From Nitrosarchaeum sp. (lineage in GTDB: Archaea > Thermoproteota > Nitrososphaeria > Nitrososphaerales > Nitrosopumilaceae): a DNA stretch of 64,000 bases. Numbering within the stretch: position 1 is the first letter of the stretch; every line of letters starts with the position of its first letter. Position numbers and translations under genes: made by a program. The stretch is from contig NSIR01000002.1 in assembly GCA_002737445.1 (NCBI GenBank), positions 224,663 to 288,662 on the forward strand, in the 5' to 3' direction. The notes under the pieces are model-generated. The model made no database searches, had not been told where the DNA came from, and worked only from the letters and a program-made list of their open reading frames with translations. Below, one piece after another: positions 17,156 through 37,374 of the stretch.

Positions 17156-18865
17156 TTGGATGAAAAAATTAAAAATGAAATCAGAAAAATTGCATTACAA
17201 AATGCATTTGAGCATGAAGGAGTAACTCAAGATAAAATTGTATTAGCTAAAATTCTCGGATTAAAACCTGAATTTAGAGCTAAAGTTAAAGAAATTGTTG
17301 GAGACATCACAGAGATCGTTTCAAATGTAAATCAAATTTCATTTGAAAACCAAAAGAGAGAGATAGAGGAAAACTATCCAGAAATTTTAATTCCAAAAGA
17401 AAAAATTGAAGAAAGAGAAGGATTTCCACCACTAAAAAATGCTGAACATGGAAATGTGATAACAAGATTTCCGCCAGAGCCTAACGGATATCCACATATA
17501 GGGCATGCTAAAGCTGCCATAATTAATTCAGAATATGCAAAAATGTATGGTGGAAAATTTATTTTAAGAATGGATGATACAAATCCAGAAGCTGAAAGAA
17601 TGGAATATCATGCTGCAATTAAAGTTGGACTGGATTGGTTAGGAATAAAATTCGATATTATAAAAAATACATCCGATGACATGGAATTATTTTATGAAAA
17701 AGGAAAAGAGTTGATCAACATTGGAAAAGCTTACGTTTGCACATGTAAGAGGGAAGACATTAGCAATAATAGAAAAGAACGAAAAGCATGTAAATGTAGC
17801 AGAGCAGATATTAAAGAAAATATAAAAGGTTGGGGAAAAATGTTTGATAAATTTAAACCAGGAGATGCAATTATAAGATTTCGCGGAGATATGAGTGCAG
17901 ATAATGCAGTAATGCGAGATCCGGTATTATTTAGAATAATTGATGAAAAGCACTATACATTAGGAAACAAATATCGTGTTTGGCCAAGTTATGATTTTTC
18001 GGTAGCAATTGAAGATAGTAATGATGGAGTGACGCATGCATTTCGTTCAAAAGAATTTGAATTGCGAGAGGAACTTATTGATTCCATTTTAGATGCATTG
18101 AATATGAGAAAACCATATCAAGATTTCTTTTCCAGACTTGAATTCAAAGGAATGCCTATTTCCAAAAGAATCATCAGGCCATTGATAGAGGAAGGAAAAG
18201 TGTCGTGGTATGATGACCCAAGATTACCTACGTTAGAATCACTCAAAAGAAGAGGAATTAAACCTGAAGCAATAAAAAAATTCATTTTATCATTGGGATT
18301 AACTAAAGCAAATACTCTTGCACCATTTGAAACACTTGAATCATTCAATAGAAAATACGTAGATGCAGAAAGTATAAGATTATTTATGGTTATTAATCCA
18401 AAAAAACTCAAAATAAAAAATTTACCAATGACAGATGTAGAAATTCCAAATCATCCAATAAAAGATATGGGAAAAAGAAAAATAAATTTGAATGAAAATT
18501 TATTTATTTCTCAAGAAGATGCAATAAATATTAAAGACAACACGTTAATTAAATTACTAGGATTAGGTAATGTTAGAATTTCAAATAGTAGTGGTGAATT
18601 AGAGGGAGAATTCATAGATACTAAGAATATCACAGACATACAAAAAATACAATGGGTCACACAAAAAAATGCTCATATAATAAAAATTCTTATTCCAAAA
18701 GCATTGTTCATCGGTGAACAATTTAATGAAAATAGTTTAGAAGAGCTAGAAGTGTATACAGAACAACACTACTTGCAATTAAAAGATGGTGATGAAATTC
18801 AATTTATCAGATTTGGATATTGCAGAAAAGATTCACAGAATCAAGCAATTTTTACACATAAATAG
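17156..18865 (+). CDS. gltX: Glutamyl-tRNA synthetase (archaeal type)
   Basis: 569 residues, TTG start one base after the prenyl synthase stop. Class-I synthetase signatures: PPEPNGYPHIGHAKAAI (HIGH) and KGMPISKR (KMSKS position). A Cys-rich insertion, CTCKREDISNNRKERKACKC, looks like a zinc knuckle. The beta-barrel anticodon-binding end fits the archaeal/eukaryotic GlnRS-like subtype. In archaea this enzyme normally charges tRNA-Gln with Glu as well, before GatDE conversion. Confidence 0.95.
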   Translation: MDEKIKNEIRKIALQNAFEHEGVTQDKIVLAKILGLKPEFRAKVKEIVGDITEIVSNVNQISFENQKREIEENYPEILIPKEKIEEREGFPPLKNAEHGNVITRFPPEPNGYPHIGHAKAAIINSEYAKMYGGKFILRMDDTNPEAERMEYHAAIKVGLDWLGIKFDIIKNTSDDMELFYEKGKELINIGKAYVCTCKREDISNNRKERKACKCSRADIKENIKGWGKMFDKFKPGDAIIRFRGDMSADNAVMRDPVLFRIIDEKHYTLGNKYRVWPSYDFSVAIEDSNDGVTHAFRSKEFELREELIDSILDALNMRKPYQDFFSRLEFKGMPISKRIIRPLIEEGKVSWYDDPRLPTLESLKRRGIKPEAIKKFILSLGLTKANTLAPFETLESFNRKYVDAESIRLFMVINPKKLKIKNLPMTDVEIPNHPIKDMGKRKINLNENLFISQEDAINIKDNTLIKLLGLGNVRISNSSGELEGEFIDTKNITDIQKIQWVTQKNAHIIKILIPKALFIGEQFNENSLEELEVYTEQHYLQLKDGDEIQFIRFGYCRKDSQNQAIFTHK

Positions 18866-23739: not shown

Positions 23740-24552
23740 TCAATTTAGTAATTTTTCATGCAAACTTATTTTTATTTTAGTCAAGGATAATTTCAAATTA
23801 TCAGGTATTATCACTAATAATCCTGAATTCTTTGTCACATTGTTACAAATACCGCTAAAACTGTTATGATTTATTGTAAAACATTTGGGTTGATCATAAA
23901 ATATAAAAGAATTATTGTCCAAATAATGATTTAATTCAATTTCTGACGGGATAAAATATGCATCGAAAAAAGTATTTTCGTCATCTATAGAAATTCCAAA
24001 TTCATAAGAAGTAAAATATTCCAATGTGCAAATAGGTATGAATTGAACATATCCACTCTTTACAAGTTCTTTCTGTTTTTCTAAGGAATATTTTTCATTT
24101 GGAATATTTTTATAAATAGATACATAGGGATCATTATTTAGTTTAATTCCCTGCAATGATTCAATATTACTACGAATACTATCAACCGCATATCTATACA
24201 GATGTGGGTTCCAACTAGATTCACAATTGCTAAATTCATGTTTTAATTCAACAAATGATTTTTGTTTTTGATAATGTAGTTGATTAGAATTGTAATCTGA
24301 AAACATTGTGGTATCTGAAGAATCATACCCAAATCCAGTAACATTGGATTTTTGATTTGACCAAACATTTGTCACATCAAATAGAATATTTCCAGGGTAA
24401 CTATTCCATTCAGGTTGGAGATGAATATAGATAGAATATTTGTTAATATCTTGATCATATGGTGAAGTAAATAGTAAATGACCAAAAAAAGCATTAAATA
24501 AAATTACAATAAGAGCAATTAGAGGTATTAAAAAATAATAACTATTTTTCAT
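23740..24552 (-). CDS. Membrane-anchored extracytoplasmic protein, unknown
   Basis: Residues 1-20 (MKNSYYFLIPLIALIVILFN) form an anchor or signal peptide. About 250 mostly polar, Tyr/Asn/Ser-rich residues follow with five cysteines, likely outside the cell. I start at ATG 24552; an upstream codon at 24579 would add nine residues. No conserved motif recognised. Convergent with corA. Confidence 0.65.
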   Translation of the reverse strand: MKNSYYFLIPLIALIVILFNAFFGHLLFTSPYDQDINKYSIYIHLQPEWNSYPGNILFDVTNVWSNQKSNVTGFGYDSSDTTMFSDYNSNQLHYQKQKSFVELKHEFSNCESSWNPHLYRYAVDSIRSNIESLQGIKLNNDPYVSIYKNIPNEKYSLEKQKELVKSGYVQFIPICTLEYFTSYEFGISIDDENTFFDAYFIPSEIELNHYLDNNSFIFYDQPKCFTINHNSFSGICNNVTKNSGLLVIIPDNLKLSLTKIKISLHEKLLN

Positions 24553-30633: not shown

Positions 30634-30694
30634 TGAAATCACATGAAAATAATAAATTCTATATTAAAAGATTGATTTTATTAAAAATTTAAAA

Positions 30695-30809
30695 TGCCAG
30701 CACTGTTGCTTCCCAAGAGCTCTCGCATCTTAGTAGCACAACAGCGACATTAGGTTTGACTTCCAAGTTCGGAATGGGATTGGGTCGCACCCTAACGCTA
30801 TGGCCGGCT
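30695..30809 (-). rRNA. rrf: 5S ribosomal RNA
   Basis: Read on the minus strand, the 5' arm GCCGGC pairs with the 3' arm GCTGGC. Loop-region sequences AATCCCATTCCGAACTTGGA and GTCAAACC are typical of 5S rRNA, and helix IV/V follows. About 115-117 nt. No 16S or 23S is nearby, so 5S is unlinked. An AT-rich box near 30830-30840 may be its promoter. Ends are good to within a few bases. Confidence 0.92.
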
Positions 30810-30898
30810 TGAAAAATGTTTACAGATTCTTATCTATTAAGGTAACGCCTGATATCAGTTCAAAAGAGGTATAAATCAAGGATTAATCAAATTACGAC

Positions 30899-34351: not shown

Positions 34352-35458
34352 ATGACTGATCCTACTCATGAAGAGGTGATTTCATTGGTAAATTCATTAT
34401 TTGATGTAAGTCAATTTAAAAGAGAAATGTATTCTTTAGAGTTCAAAATTAATGATAGTGATTTTAAATTAAAATTTGAAGATTTAGCAAGAAAATTAGA
34501 AAATATGAATTATATTTGTAAACTAGAACAAATGGAAGAAGGTAAACACATAATCATTCAAAAATTCACTCCAAAAAAAACAAAGAAGTGGATTAATGCA
34601 TCTTGGACTCCAAGAATTTTGTTTGTGATAGTTATCGCGTTTGTAATGATTGATGGTTATTATCGTACCACTGGAACAAATTCCATTACAAATATTGGTG
34701 AACCAATTGAGATGGCCGGAATTTATACACTTTCACTTTTAGGAATTTTAGGAATTCATGAATTAGGACATATAATTGCAGCAAAAGTCCACAAATTAAA
34801 AACATCCTGGCCATTTTTCATACCAGGATTGCCAATTATTGGAATTCCAACTTTTGGTGCATTTATTCAATCACGTGGATTAACAATTAATCGAGAGATT
34901 TTATTTGATGTTGCATTAGCTGGTCCAATCGCAGGTCTGATAATTACAATGATAGTTTCAATATATGGTGCATACACAGCTCCAATATTACCAGTGGATG
35001 TTGCACAAAGACTTTTTGCGGATTCAAAATTAATGGAGTGGAATCAGGGAGAACCACTTCTAATGACTGCGAGTCTAGCATTGTTTGGAAAAGGTGGTAC
35101 AGGTCATGAAGTAATTATGACACCAATTTTATTTGCAGCTTGGATTGGATTTTTAATTACATTTTTAAATTTATTACCCGCTTGGCAATTAGATGGAGGG
35201 CATATGGCAAGAACTCTTCTAGGTGTAAAACTTCACAGATATGCAACTATTGGAAGTATGATAATTCTTGTTTTGTTGAATTTTTGGCTAATGGCAATAC
35301 TGATTTTAATTTTAAGTTCAAGAAATCCTAGTGCAATGCCATTAGACGATATATCTCCATTATCAAAAAATAGAAAACTTGTTTATGTGTTCATGATGGG
35401 ATTATCTATTTTATGTGCACCTTTACCATCAAATTTTTTACCAGATTGGTTACCTTAG
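34352..35458 (+). CDS. Site-2 protease family membrane metalloprotease (M50)
   Basis: 368 residues. A cytoplasmic N-terminal domain (1-85) precedes about six membrane helices. Zinc site HELGH in GIHELGHIIAA and third ligand Asp in LPAWQLDGGHMA. These proteases cut transmembrane anchors of regulatory proteins. The natural substrate is unknown. The stop overlaps the convergent LarA-like gene by 9 bp. Confidence 0.9.
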   Translation: MTDPTHEEVISLVNSLFDVSQFKREMYSLEFKINDSDFKLKFEDLARKLENMNYICKLEQMEEGKHIIIQKFTPKKTKKWINASWTPRILFVIVIAFVMIDGYYRTTGTNSITNIGEPIEMAGIYTLSLLGILGIHELGHIIAAKVHKLKTSWPFFIPGLPIIGIPTFGAFIQSRGLTINREILFDVALAGPIAGLIITMIVSIYGAYTAPILPVDVAQRLFADSKLMEWNQGEPLLMTASLALFGKGGTGHEVIMTPILFAAWIGFLITFLNLLPAWQLDGGHMARTLLGVKLHRYATIGSMIILVLLNFWLMAILILILSSRNPSAMPLDDISPLSKNRKLVYVFMMGLSILCAPLPSNFLPDWLP

Positions 35459-36532
35459 TAAAAGTCTAGATCCATCTATCACAACAGTAACTTTTTGCCT
35501 AGAACCTTGTGTTTTTAAAATATAATCTAAAGAGGGTTTAATTCCAGATAAAGAAATCATATTTAATTTTTTTACATAGTATTCTGGAAGTATTGAAACC
35601 AATCCAATTTGAAAATTCTTTTGTACTTCTGTTAAAAATAATAAATCTTCCATACCTTGAATATATTTAGTAGGATTTCCAATTTGTTCAAGATTCAGTC
35701 TGCCTTCGACATACTGTTGAAGTGCATCAGAACCTAAACCAGATTTACATTCTGCAACTAATATAGATAAACCACCATTTTGTACTGCAGCAGAACAATT
35801 CCAAAGAGAAGAAAGGGATTTTCCAAGATTGTCATTACTAGAATCTTTTCCAGTACTAATTATCATGGATTTATGATGACCCATATCCTTGATTGAAAAT
35901 GATTCTAGAGTTTTTGTGGATGAAATAGTTTCAGACGGATGACCAATTGCAAGATCTATAATACCTTGAGAATTAGCTACAATTTCAATTGCTTTAATTT
36001 CAAAATTGTCAGTAAATTTTTTTGCTTCATCAAAACTTTCTGGTAGTTGTCCAGGGGCAGGAAGATTGCCTTTTCTTTTGGCATATGCAGTAAGCATTGA
36101 TTCTTGACCAAATTTTTTGATTAATCTGGTAGAGATGGTTTCATATCCAAATAAACCATCAAATTCCATTTCTCCAATAAAAACAAGATTAGAGTTAGAA
36201 AGATCAGCATTATCAAATTCATTGATTGAGCTACCTTCAGGTAATCCAGATCTCACCAAATTCATAATTTTTTTTTCAGCCAAAATTTTAGGAAATTGGA
36301 ATGATTTTTGTTCGCATATTGTAAATAATGATGAAATGAGTTTTTGAATGGATTTAGAATTATGTAAAACTACAAGTTCCATGGGTTTTGTTAAATCCAA
36401 TGTATTGAGTTTTTCATTGATCGTTGTATCATCCAATATTTTACCATCGGAATCAATTTTTTGTTCTAAATTTTCGGCTCTAATGTCTAAAACGACATCA
36501 GTAATTCCATAATTTAACCAAATTTCAGGCAT
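35450..36532 (-). CDS. LarA-like (DUF2088) protein lacking the usual substrate motif
   Basis: About 360 residues. Start chosen at ATG 36532 (MPEIWLNYGITD), with a TATA-like ATTTATTTT 21-30 bp upstream; the longer frame begins at 36550. The N-terminal strand pair and the C-terminal segment GGLSILVAECKSGLGSDALQ, with a preceding STGKDSSNDNLGKSL, match the LarA/DUF2088 fold. The D-x-T-R-P-x-P stretch and the His ligands that hold the Ni-pincer cofactor in lactate racemase are not evident. So the fold is likely but racemase activity is not. Confidence 0.5.
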   Translation of the reverse strand: MPEIWLNYGITDVVLDIRAENLEQKIDSDGKILDDTTINEKLNTLDLTKPMELVVLHNSKSIQKLISSLFTICEQKSFQFPKILAEKKIMNLVRSGLPEGSSINEFDNADLSNSNLVFIGEMEFDGLFGYETISTRLIKKFGQESMLTAYAKRKGNLPAPGQLPESFDEAKKFTDNFEIKAIEIVANSQGIIDLAIGHPSETISSTKTLESFSIKDMGHHKSMIISTGKDSSNDNLGKSLSSLWNCSAAVQNGGLSILVAECKSGLGSDALQQYVEGRLNLEQIGNPTKYIQGMEDLLFLTEVQKNFQIGLVSILPEYYVKKLNMISLSGIKPSLDYILKTQGSRQKVTVVIDGSRLLLR

Positions 36533-36552
36533 AATTATCATATAATACAAAC

Positions 36553-36582: not shown

Positions 36583-37188
36583 ATGGAATTTGTAAAAGAG
36601 TTTGCAGCATTTTTACATCAAAAAGAGGTTATAAAATTTGGAGATTTTACTCTAGCCAGTGGTAAAAAAAGTTCTTACTATGTTGATTTAAGATTACTTC
36701 CTAGCTATCCACATCAATTTAGGAATATGATAAAATATCTACAAAATAATATTATAGAAAGTATTGGATTAGATAGCTTTAATTCTTTAGTGTCAGTTCC
36801 CACAGGAGGTTTGATTATTGCATCTGCATTAGCAATTGAAATAGTTAAGCCATTAATCTATGTAAGAAGTAAAACGAAAGATTATGGAACTTCAAAATCA
36901 GTAGAAGGTCAAATTTATGATGGAATGAAAGTTGTTATGATTGACGATGTTGCAACCACTGGAGGTTCAGTAATAAACGCAATAAAGTCTTTGAAAGAAG
37001 CGAACATAACAATACATGATGCATATGTAATTGTAAATAGAATGGAAGGGGCAGATGAAGCGCTTAAAGATGTAGGAGTTAAATTACATTCAATCACCAA
37101 TGTAATGCAAATCACACAGTCATTATACGATCAAAAACTTGTCGGTGCGGATATTTTAGAAAAAACAACAAAACAAATCGGAAAATAA
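36583..37188 (+). CDS. pyrE: Orotate phosphoribosyltransferase
   Basis: 201 residues. Converts orotate plus PRPP to OMP in pyrimidine synthesis. FTLASGKKSSYYVDLR, SVPTGGLIIASALA, and the PRPP motif VVMIDDVATTGGSVI are complete. Length and motifs match the family. No pyrF is adjacent. Confidence 0.96.
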   Translation: MEFVKEFAAFLHQKEVIKFGDFTLASGKKSSYYVDLRLLPSYPHQFRNMIKYLQNNIIESIGLDSFNSLVSVPTGGLIIASALAIEIVKPLIYVRSKTKDYGTSKSVEGQIYDGMKVVMIDDVATTGGSVINAIKSLKEANITIHDAYVIVNRMEGADEALKDVGVKLHSITNVMQITQSLYDQKLVGADILEKTTKQIGK

Positions 37189-37191
37189 TTT

Positions 37192-37258
37192 TTGGCAGCT
37201 CAGACAAATGCCTTTCAATCATCATTCAGATATAACTCTGATTCTTCATCGCGGCCAA
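37192..37258 (-). ncRNA. Candidate C/D box methylation-guide sRNA
   Basis: Read on the minus strand: stem TTGGCCGC, C box GATGA (one mismatch to RUGAUGA), a 16-nt guide, D' box CTGA, directly followed by C' box ATGATGA (perfect), a 15-nt guide, D box CTGA, and closing stem GCTGCCAA. The terminal arms pair 7 of 8 bp. A TTTTAAAA box lies about 24 bp upstream at 37278-37285. The element fills the pyrE to tRNA(CAT) gap antiparallel to pyrE. If real, it guides 2'-O-methylation; the target was not identified. Confidence 0.65.
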
Positions 37259-37277: not shown

Positions 37278-37285
37278 TTTTAAAA
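37278..37285 (-). promoter_or_regulatory. TATA box of the candidate C/D sRNA
   Basis: TTTTAAAA, palindromic, about 24 bp upstream of the predicted sRNA 5' end at 37258. It lies between that gene and the 3' end of the upstream tRNA, so processing of a joint transcript is also possible. Confidence 0.45.
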
Positions 37286-37300
37286 CTAATGGAAATAATA

Positions 37301-37374
37301 TGGGCCCAAAGGGCTTCGATCCCTTGACTCCCCGGTTATGAGCCGGGTACTCTACCAAGCTGAGTTATGGGCCC
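37301..37374 (-). tRNA. tRNA with CAT anticodon (Met elongator or Ile2)
   Basis: Minus strand: acceptor GGGCCCA/TGGGCCC, anticodon stem CCCGG-CTCATAA-CCGGG giving CAT, T arm AAGGG-ATCGAAG-CCCTT. G1-C72 and the lack of three G-C pairs in initiator order argue against an initiator. CAT could also be tRNA-Ile2 after C34 modification, which cannot be decided by eye. No intron. Confidence 0.9.

Follow-up and report, generated by a model that had tools for sequence, protein, structure and literature searches.

A predicted double-guide C/D box sRNA downstream of tRNA-Met in Nitrosarchaeum, with two neighbouring candidate targets in 23S rRNA

The window of Nitrosarchaeum sp. analysed here (the whole stretch of 64,000 nucleotides) contains a 67-base element on the minus strand (37192..37258, ends approximate), between a pyrE-like gene and a tRNA-Met gene, which is very probably (about 0.93 by our estimate) an archaeal C/D box sRNA that is transcribed, carries two guides, and methylates two sites of 23S rRNA. 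Its anatomy, its conservation, the covariation of its stem, both complementarities, and the genes for fibrillarin and Nop5 are read directly from sequence, and transcription, RNP assembly, methylation, and a folding role are predictions. The gene call rests on its being the sole C/D arrangement in the window and on its conservation under a covariance model (R1). The initial annotation had placed the element in this RNA class, an assignment that both its complementarity to rRNA and its conservation support. On the best reading, the sRNA is ancient and of a known class, and what is unusual about it is the deep conservation of both of its guides.

Box anatomy and conservation of the sRNA

Read 5' to 3', the sRNA is TTGGCCGC G ATGAAGA ATCAGAGTTATAT CTGA ATG ATGATTG AAAGGCATTTGT CTGA GCTGCCAA, i.e., a stem arm, a bulged G, the C box, the D' guide, the D' box, a spacer, the C' box, the D guide, the D box, and the second stem arm. 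Box-like motifs in this order had been described before, with the strand left unstated; the order stands and belongs to the minus strand, as do all sRNA parts given below, but the internal borders did not hold when the box registers were counted in 111 distinct copies anchored on both guide cores. The terminal stem begins with TTGGCC (37253..37258), runs on with GC (37252-37251), and is closed by the 3' arm GCTGCCAA (37192..37199), which shows compensatory changes in relatives; as first described, the arms TTGGCCGC and GCTGCCAA pair at seven of eight positions. In a kink-turn, the bulged G (37250) together with the first two C box nucleotides, AT, would supply the three unpaired positions. The C box, ATGAAGA (37243..37249), has one mismatch to RUGAUGA (U5 to A), can form the G6-C1 pair with a D box of CTGA, and lies at the position to which the Rfam sR14 model aligns its C box. 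Its RTGA is kept in 110 of the 111 copies; the C box originally proposed, GCGATGA, lies 3 nt before it and overlaps its own stem.

The D' guide, ATCAGAGTTATAT (37230..37242), is followed in the sequence by a D' box of CTGA (37226..37229), which stands 4 nt past GAGTT in 55 of 56 own-family copies. Between D' and C' lies the spacer ATG (37223..37225), the nucleotides of which vary among relatives and the length of which is 3 nt in the window genus and 2-9 nt elsewhere. In the homologous register, the C' box is ATGATTG (37216..37222), with RTGA in 105 of the 111 copies; in the window genus, it is weak at its 3' end, being without the G6 that pairs with C1 of D'. The register that adjoins D', ATGATGA (37225-37219), is the C' box of the initial annotation; it offers an alternative solely in the window genus, and its RTGA is kept in just 11 of 111 copies. 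We therefore rejected a zero D'-C' spacer as a structural novelty: in some members of the genus, the word ATGATGA spans the spacer by chance. The D guide, AAAGGCATTTGT (37204..37215), ends at a D box of CTGA (37200..37203), conserved as CTGA, CCGA, CGGA, or CAGA. Because the C and C' registers were corrected, the D' and D guides are 13 and 12 nt long, which is the usual archaeal size, instead of the 16 and 15 nt first reported. The terminal C/D kink-turn and the internal C'/D' loop would be expected to bind L7Ae, Nop5, and fibrillarin, and genes for fibrillarin (PF01269, E 2e-86) and Nop5 (PF01798, E 2e-67) are present in the same genome.

We scanned both strands of the 64-kb window for the order C-D'-C'-D, using archaeal spacings and allowing each C or C' box no more than one mismatch. 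The arrangement occurred at one place only, in two overlapping readings, and the same scan of 60 Markov-shuffled windows returned none. Minimum free energy was unremarkable (z-score -0.88), as expected of C/D RNAs, a class for which folding is uninformative.

Homologues were recovered well beyond the genus. With a 75-nt query, blastn matched nearly all genomes of the same family (E 1e-33 to 1e-10) and, more weakly, genomes across the order. Model R1, built from 64 aligned copies, detected the sRNA in 273 of the 300 class genomes (205 of the 213 well-assembled ones) and in 199 of 300 genomes of the phylum, about 149 of them outside the order; several dozen of the phylum matches have E < 1e-8, and the weakest may represent different C/D RNAs. 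By exact pattern, the sRNA was recorded in Nitrososphaerales, other Thaumarchaeota, Caldarchaeum/Aigarchaeota, and Marsarchaeota, and a search of viral_contigs with the own-family pattern gave no match. Boxes, guides, and stem are thus conserved in the family, the order, the class, and much of the phylum. Constraint falls on these parts, and the spacer is variable: the core of the D' guide, TCAGAGTT, is near-invariant and as strongly conserved as the D guide, the core of which, AAGGCATTTG, is also near-invariant. In the terminal stem (alignment A1, columns 7-13/73-79), six of the seven pairs have changed on both sides, 83.7% of cells are paired, and none of 500 shuffles reached the covariation score; compensatory versions include GGCCGC/GCTGCC, GACGAC/GTCGTC, and GGCGTC/GACGCC. 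Judged from sequence, this conservation is stronger evidence beyond chance than the window scan.

One genome (G398) carries two related copies about 5.5 kb apart on contig C10, at 23764-24036 (L156) and 18256-18528 (L171). In this pair, the D guide is unchanged and the D' guide is unrelated (GGAATTACCAAATC), which looks like a recent duplication.

Pairing with helices 69 and 71 of 23S rRNA

In 23S rRNA from the genus, the family, and the order alike, the two guides pair with sites that lie 26 nt from each other. The targets were read in the 23S rRNA of same-genus relatives because the window's own assembly is without a 23S gene, neither LSU model finding one there. This assembly is 99% complete by markers, and its 16S gene is broken into two pieces (G000 C1:228458-229610). 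The D' guide pairs with helix 69 (GUAACUCUGA), in a duplex of 10 bp with GTAACTCTGA (-13.4 kcal/mol); the full D' target predicted initially, ATATAACTCTGATT, is absent from rRNA. The D guide forms a 10-bp Watson-Crick duplex with helix 71 (CAAAUGCCUU; -14.3 kcal/mol), and its target does contain CAAATGCC, as had been proposed. We also considered 16S rRNA as a target and rejected it, its scores being 6.8-7.3 compared with 10-10.8 in 23S rRNA. When guides of shuffled composition were used, the D' score was reached in 5 of 300 trials and the D score in 24 of 300, and the best sites fell within 40 nt of each other in 8 of 300. We regard guide pairing alone as modest evidence, and pairing together with conservation as strong; besides conservation, the closeness of the two sites carries the case.

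By the D+5 rule, the D guide would direct 2'-O-methylation of the A equivalent to E. coli A1938 in helix 71, and the D' guide that of A1912 in helix 69 in the own family (E. coli numbering checked on MG1655 rrlB). Outside the family, a D' box could be recognised in 41 distinct copies; 35 of these are shorter by one nucleotide ahead of it, and A1913 is the predicted site in most other lineages. Given this one-nucleotide shift of the D' register among lineages, either the precise D' position is uncertain or the D' guide may not be catalytic in every case.

It is possible, although we consider it doubtful, that the D guide alone is catalytic (at A1938) and that the D' half chiefly anchors the RNA on helix 69, which would make the sRNA a one-site guide and an rRNA folding chaperone. 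Three features would fit such a division of labour: the D register is fixed while the D' spacing varies between 3 and 4 nt; several lineages have degraded D' and C' boxes, and 14 of 55 copies outside the family show no D' that we could recognise; and in Thermoprotei-like families, the D' guide lies about 9 nt further upstream along helix 69, having moved there while the D guide stayed in place. The idea sits less well with a D' core conserved equally to the D guide, with a D' CTGA that is intact in the own family, and with yeast, which methylates the A1913-equivalent site. Chaperone roles have indeed been proposed for double guides that bridge rRNA (Dennis et al., PMC4644070). Methylation at both sites, the reading that we prefer, leaves room for such a role: bound to both sites, the sRNA may assist folding of this subunit-interface region of 23S rRNA. 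A study of seven species, none of them Thaumarchaeota, reports helices 68, 69, and 71 at the subunit interface as hotspots of archaeal 2'-O-methylation, and its predicted sites are dense around A1912 (Dennis et al., PMC4644070).

Target and guide have changed together in two outlying lineages: helix 69 reads CTAA and the guide TTAG in G513, and helix 69 reads GGGGGTAAC and the guide GTTACCTCC in G581. Four families with the guide TCAAAGTT retain one mismatch to the target.

Two further observations concern the target region. In genomes of the f26, f35, and f39 types (loci L149, L150, L157, L165, L166, L170, and L172, among L134-L173), the D' guide is TACTCCCG or TTACCTCC; these guides pair about 9 nt further upstream, on the 5' strand of helix 69, and the D guide is the same: one guide of the pair has slid along its target and the other has not. 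At six loci (L179, L185, L186, L189, L190, and L192, the 23S loci of G367, G529, G122, G411, G358, and G369), the 23S gene carries an insertion of about 710-1130 nt exactly between the two sRNA target sites, after CTCTC and before TTAAGGTAGCC, and the sRNA guides then face two exons. These insertions have long open frames of LAGLIDADG-like look (LVDGEGCFS), an endonuclease assignment made by eye. Insertions of 47 and 56 nt lie at the same place in L182 (G371) and L193 (G476), respectively; they are without long frames and are possibly small introns.

Relation to known guide RNAs

The sRNA resembles members of known archaeal C/D sets (acidocaldarius, Pyrococcus, and Pyrobaculum; Rfam sR14, sR11, and sR17) in size, in the order C-D'-C'-D, in its terminal kink-turn stem, in guides of about 12 nt, and in having two nearby 23S targets; it differs from them in that both guides are conserved over much of the phylum. 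Membership in an Rfam family was rejected, as neither the window nor 40 distant copies gave a match at gathering score; the best matches were to sR14 in the window (25.3 against a threshold of 38) and to sR11 in the distant copies (33.8 against 39, L170). In the literature searched, we found no paper describing this sRNA and nothing specific to Thaumarchaeota (Nitrosopumilus included) on either C/D sRNAs or rRNA methylation, and its crenarchaeal members may already be listed under other names.

Archaeal C/D guides have been described as fast-evolving and poorly conserved: the seven species studied have no rRNA site common to all, and within a single genus fewer than two thirds of the predicted targets are retained (PMC7994747). 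Contrary to this picture of fast turnover, both guides of one sRNA persist here over much of a phylum, also in lineages with small genomes that are apparently mesophilic. They also yield a precise methylation prediction that is easy to check in ammonia-oxidising archaea, a group without a published C/D set in the literature searched.

On our reading, yeast Am2256, Am2280, and Am2281 presumably correspond to E. coli A1913, A1937, and A1938, a mapping that we take to agree with four pseudouridines and m5C2278 known in the region. Eukaryotic U15/SNORD15 (RF00067) and yeast snR13 guide 2'-O-methylation at the equivalent of A1938 (yeast Am2281), the function predicted here for the D guide. The SNORD15 model matched the sRNA at 17.1 bits (E 0.053; model positions 99-141 of 146, over the shared guide and D box), a score far under the 75-bit gathering threshold, and SNORD15 was absent among matches up to E 0.1 in the 40 distant copies. 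The common target is enough by itself to account for the shared guide letters, and, compared with U15 and snR13, the guide employed by the archaeal RNA is a plain D guide. On sequence grounds, this RNA is a functional counterpart of U15/snR13 rather than a demonstrated homologue, and as such it allows descent to be tested against convergence, Asgard archaea being the foremost place to do so. The helix 69 site also has a yeast parallel in Am2256, the A1913 equivalent and the predicted site in most non-Nitrosopumilaceae-like copies; in yeast, however, it is served by a separate snoRNA, snR63, and the D+5 rule gives A1912 in this archaeon. Yeast uses snR63 for Am2256 and snR13 for both Am2280 and Am2281 (PMC5199042).

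A bolder idea, to which we give little credence, is that one guide RNA goes back at least as far as the last common ancestor of the phylum, that its D guide shares descent with U15/snR13, and that it may bridge intron-split exons. If true, a particular methylation guide would be older than the split between archaea and eukaryotes, and in the lineages in which a 23S intron lies exactly between the targets, the sRNA may bridge the exons during rRNA maturation.

Genomic setting and the upstream element

The sRNA gene is flanked by a convergent pyrE-like phosphoribosyltransferase gene on the plus strand (36583..37188; Pfam PF00156 and ORF list), the stop codon of which is 4 bp away from the sRNA 3' end, and by tRNA-Met(CAT) on its own strand (37301..37374, minus strand; ARAGORN and Rfam), 42 nt upstream. 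The window ORF list holds no ORF of at least 60 aa over the feature. A TATA-like box, TTTTAAAA (37278..37285, minus strand), lies about 24 bp upstream of the sRNA, where the initial annotation had placed it. A scan for sigma-70 promoters, a type that is inapplicable to archaea, found none.

The closeness of the tRNA gene raises the question of whether the sRNA is a processed 3' part of a dicistronic tRNA-Met transcript and not independently transcribed, which we consider unlikely. In Ignicoccus, Thermoproteus, and Nanoarchaeum, C/D genes likewise lie just downstream of a same-strand tRNA and are transcribed with it (PMC7994747), and tRNA-Met is found within 80 nt upstream of the sRNA in 42 of the 89 copies examined. 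Compared with those dicistrons, however, the 42-nt gap here holds a TATA-like element of its own at the right distance, and the linkage to the tRNA is not kept in half of the relatives. Of 88 copies, 62 have a TATA-like motif in this interval, compared with 13% of randomly chosen intervals from these loci, and several copies without an adjacent upstream tRNA-Met have it as well.

It is highly improbable that the feature is a conserved DNA or mRNA element (a pyrE 3' UTR element or a terminator) or a set of chance box-like words: it does abut the pyrE stop codon, and chance can yield short C/D motifs, but it is retained in lineages whose neighbour genes differ, its constraint pattern is that of boxes, guides, a covarying stem, and a variable spacer, the shuffled windows gave no such arrangement, and an intrinsic terminator scan found no terminator-like site.

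Elsewhere in the window, a minus-strand ORF of 366 aa (35450-36550) adjoins pyrE; its only Pfam match is to LarA_C, at a sub-threshold score of 23.2 bits against a cut-off of 25. A 5S rRNA gene lies at 30692-30811.
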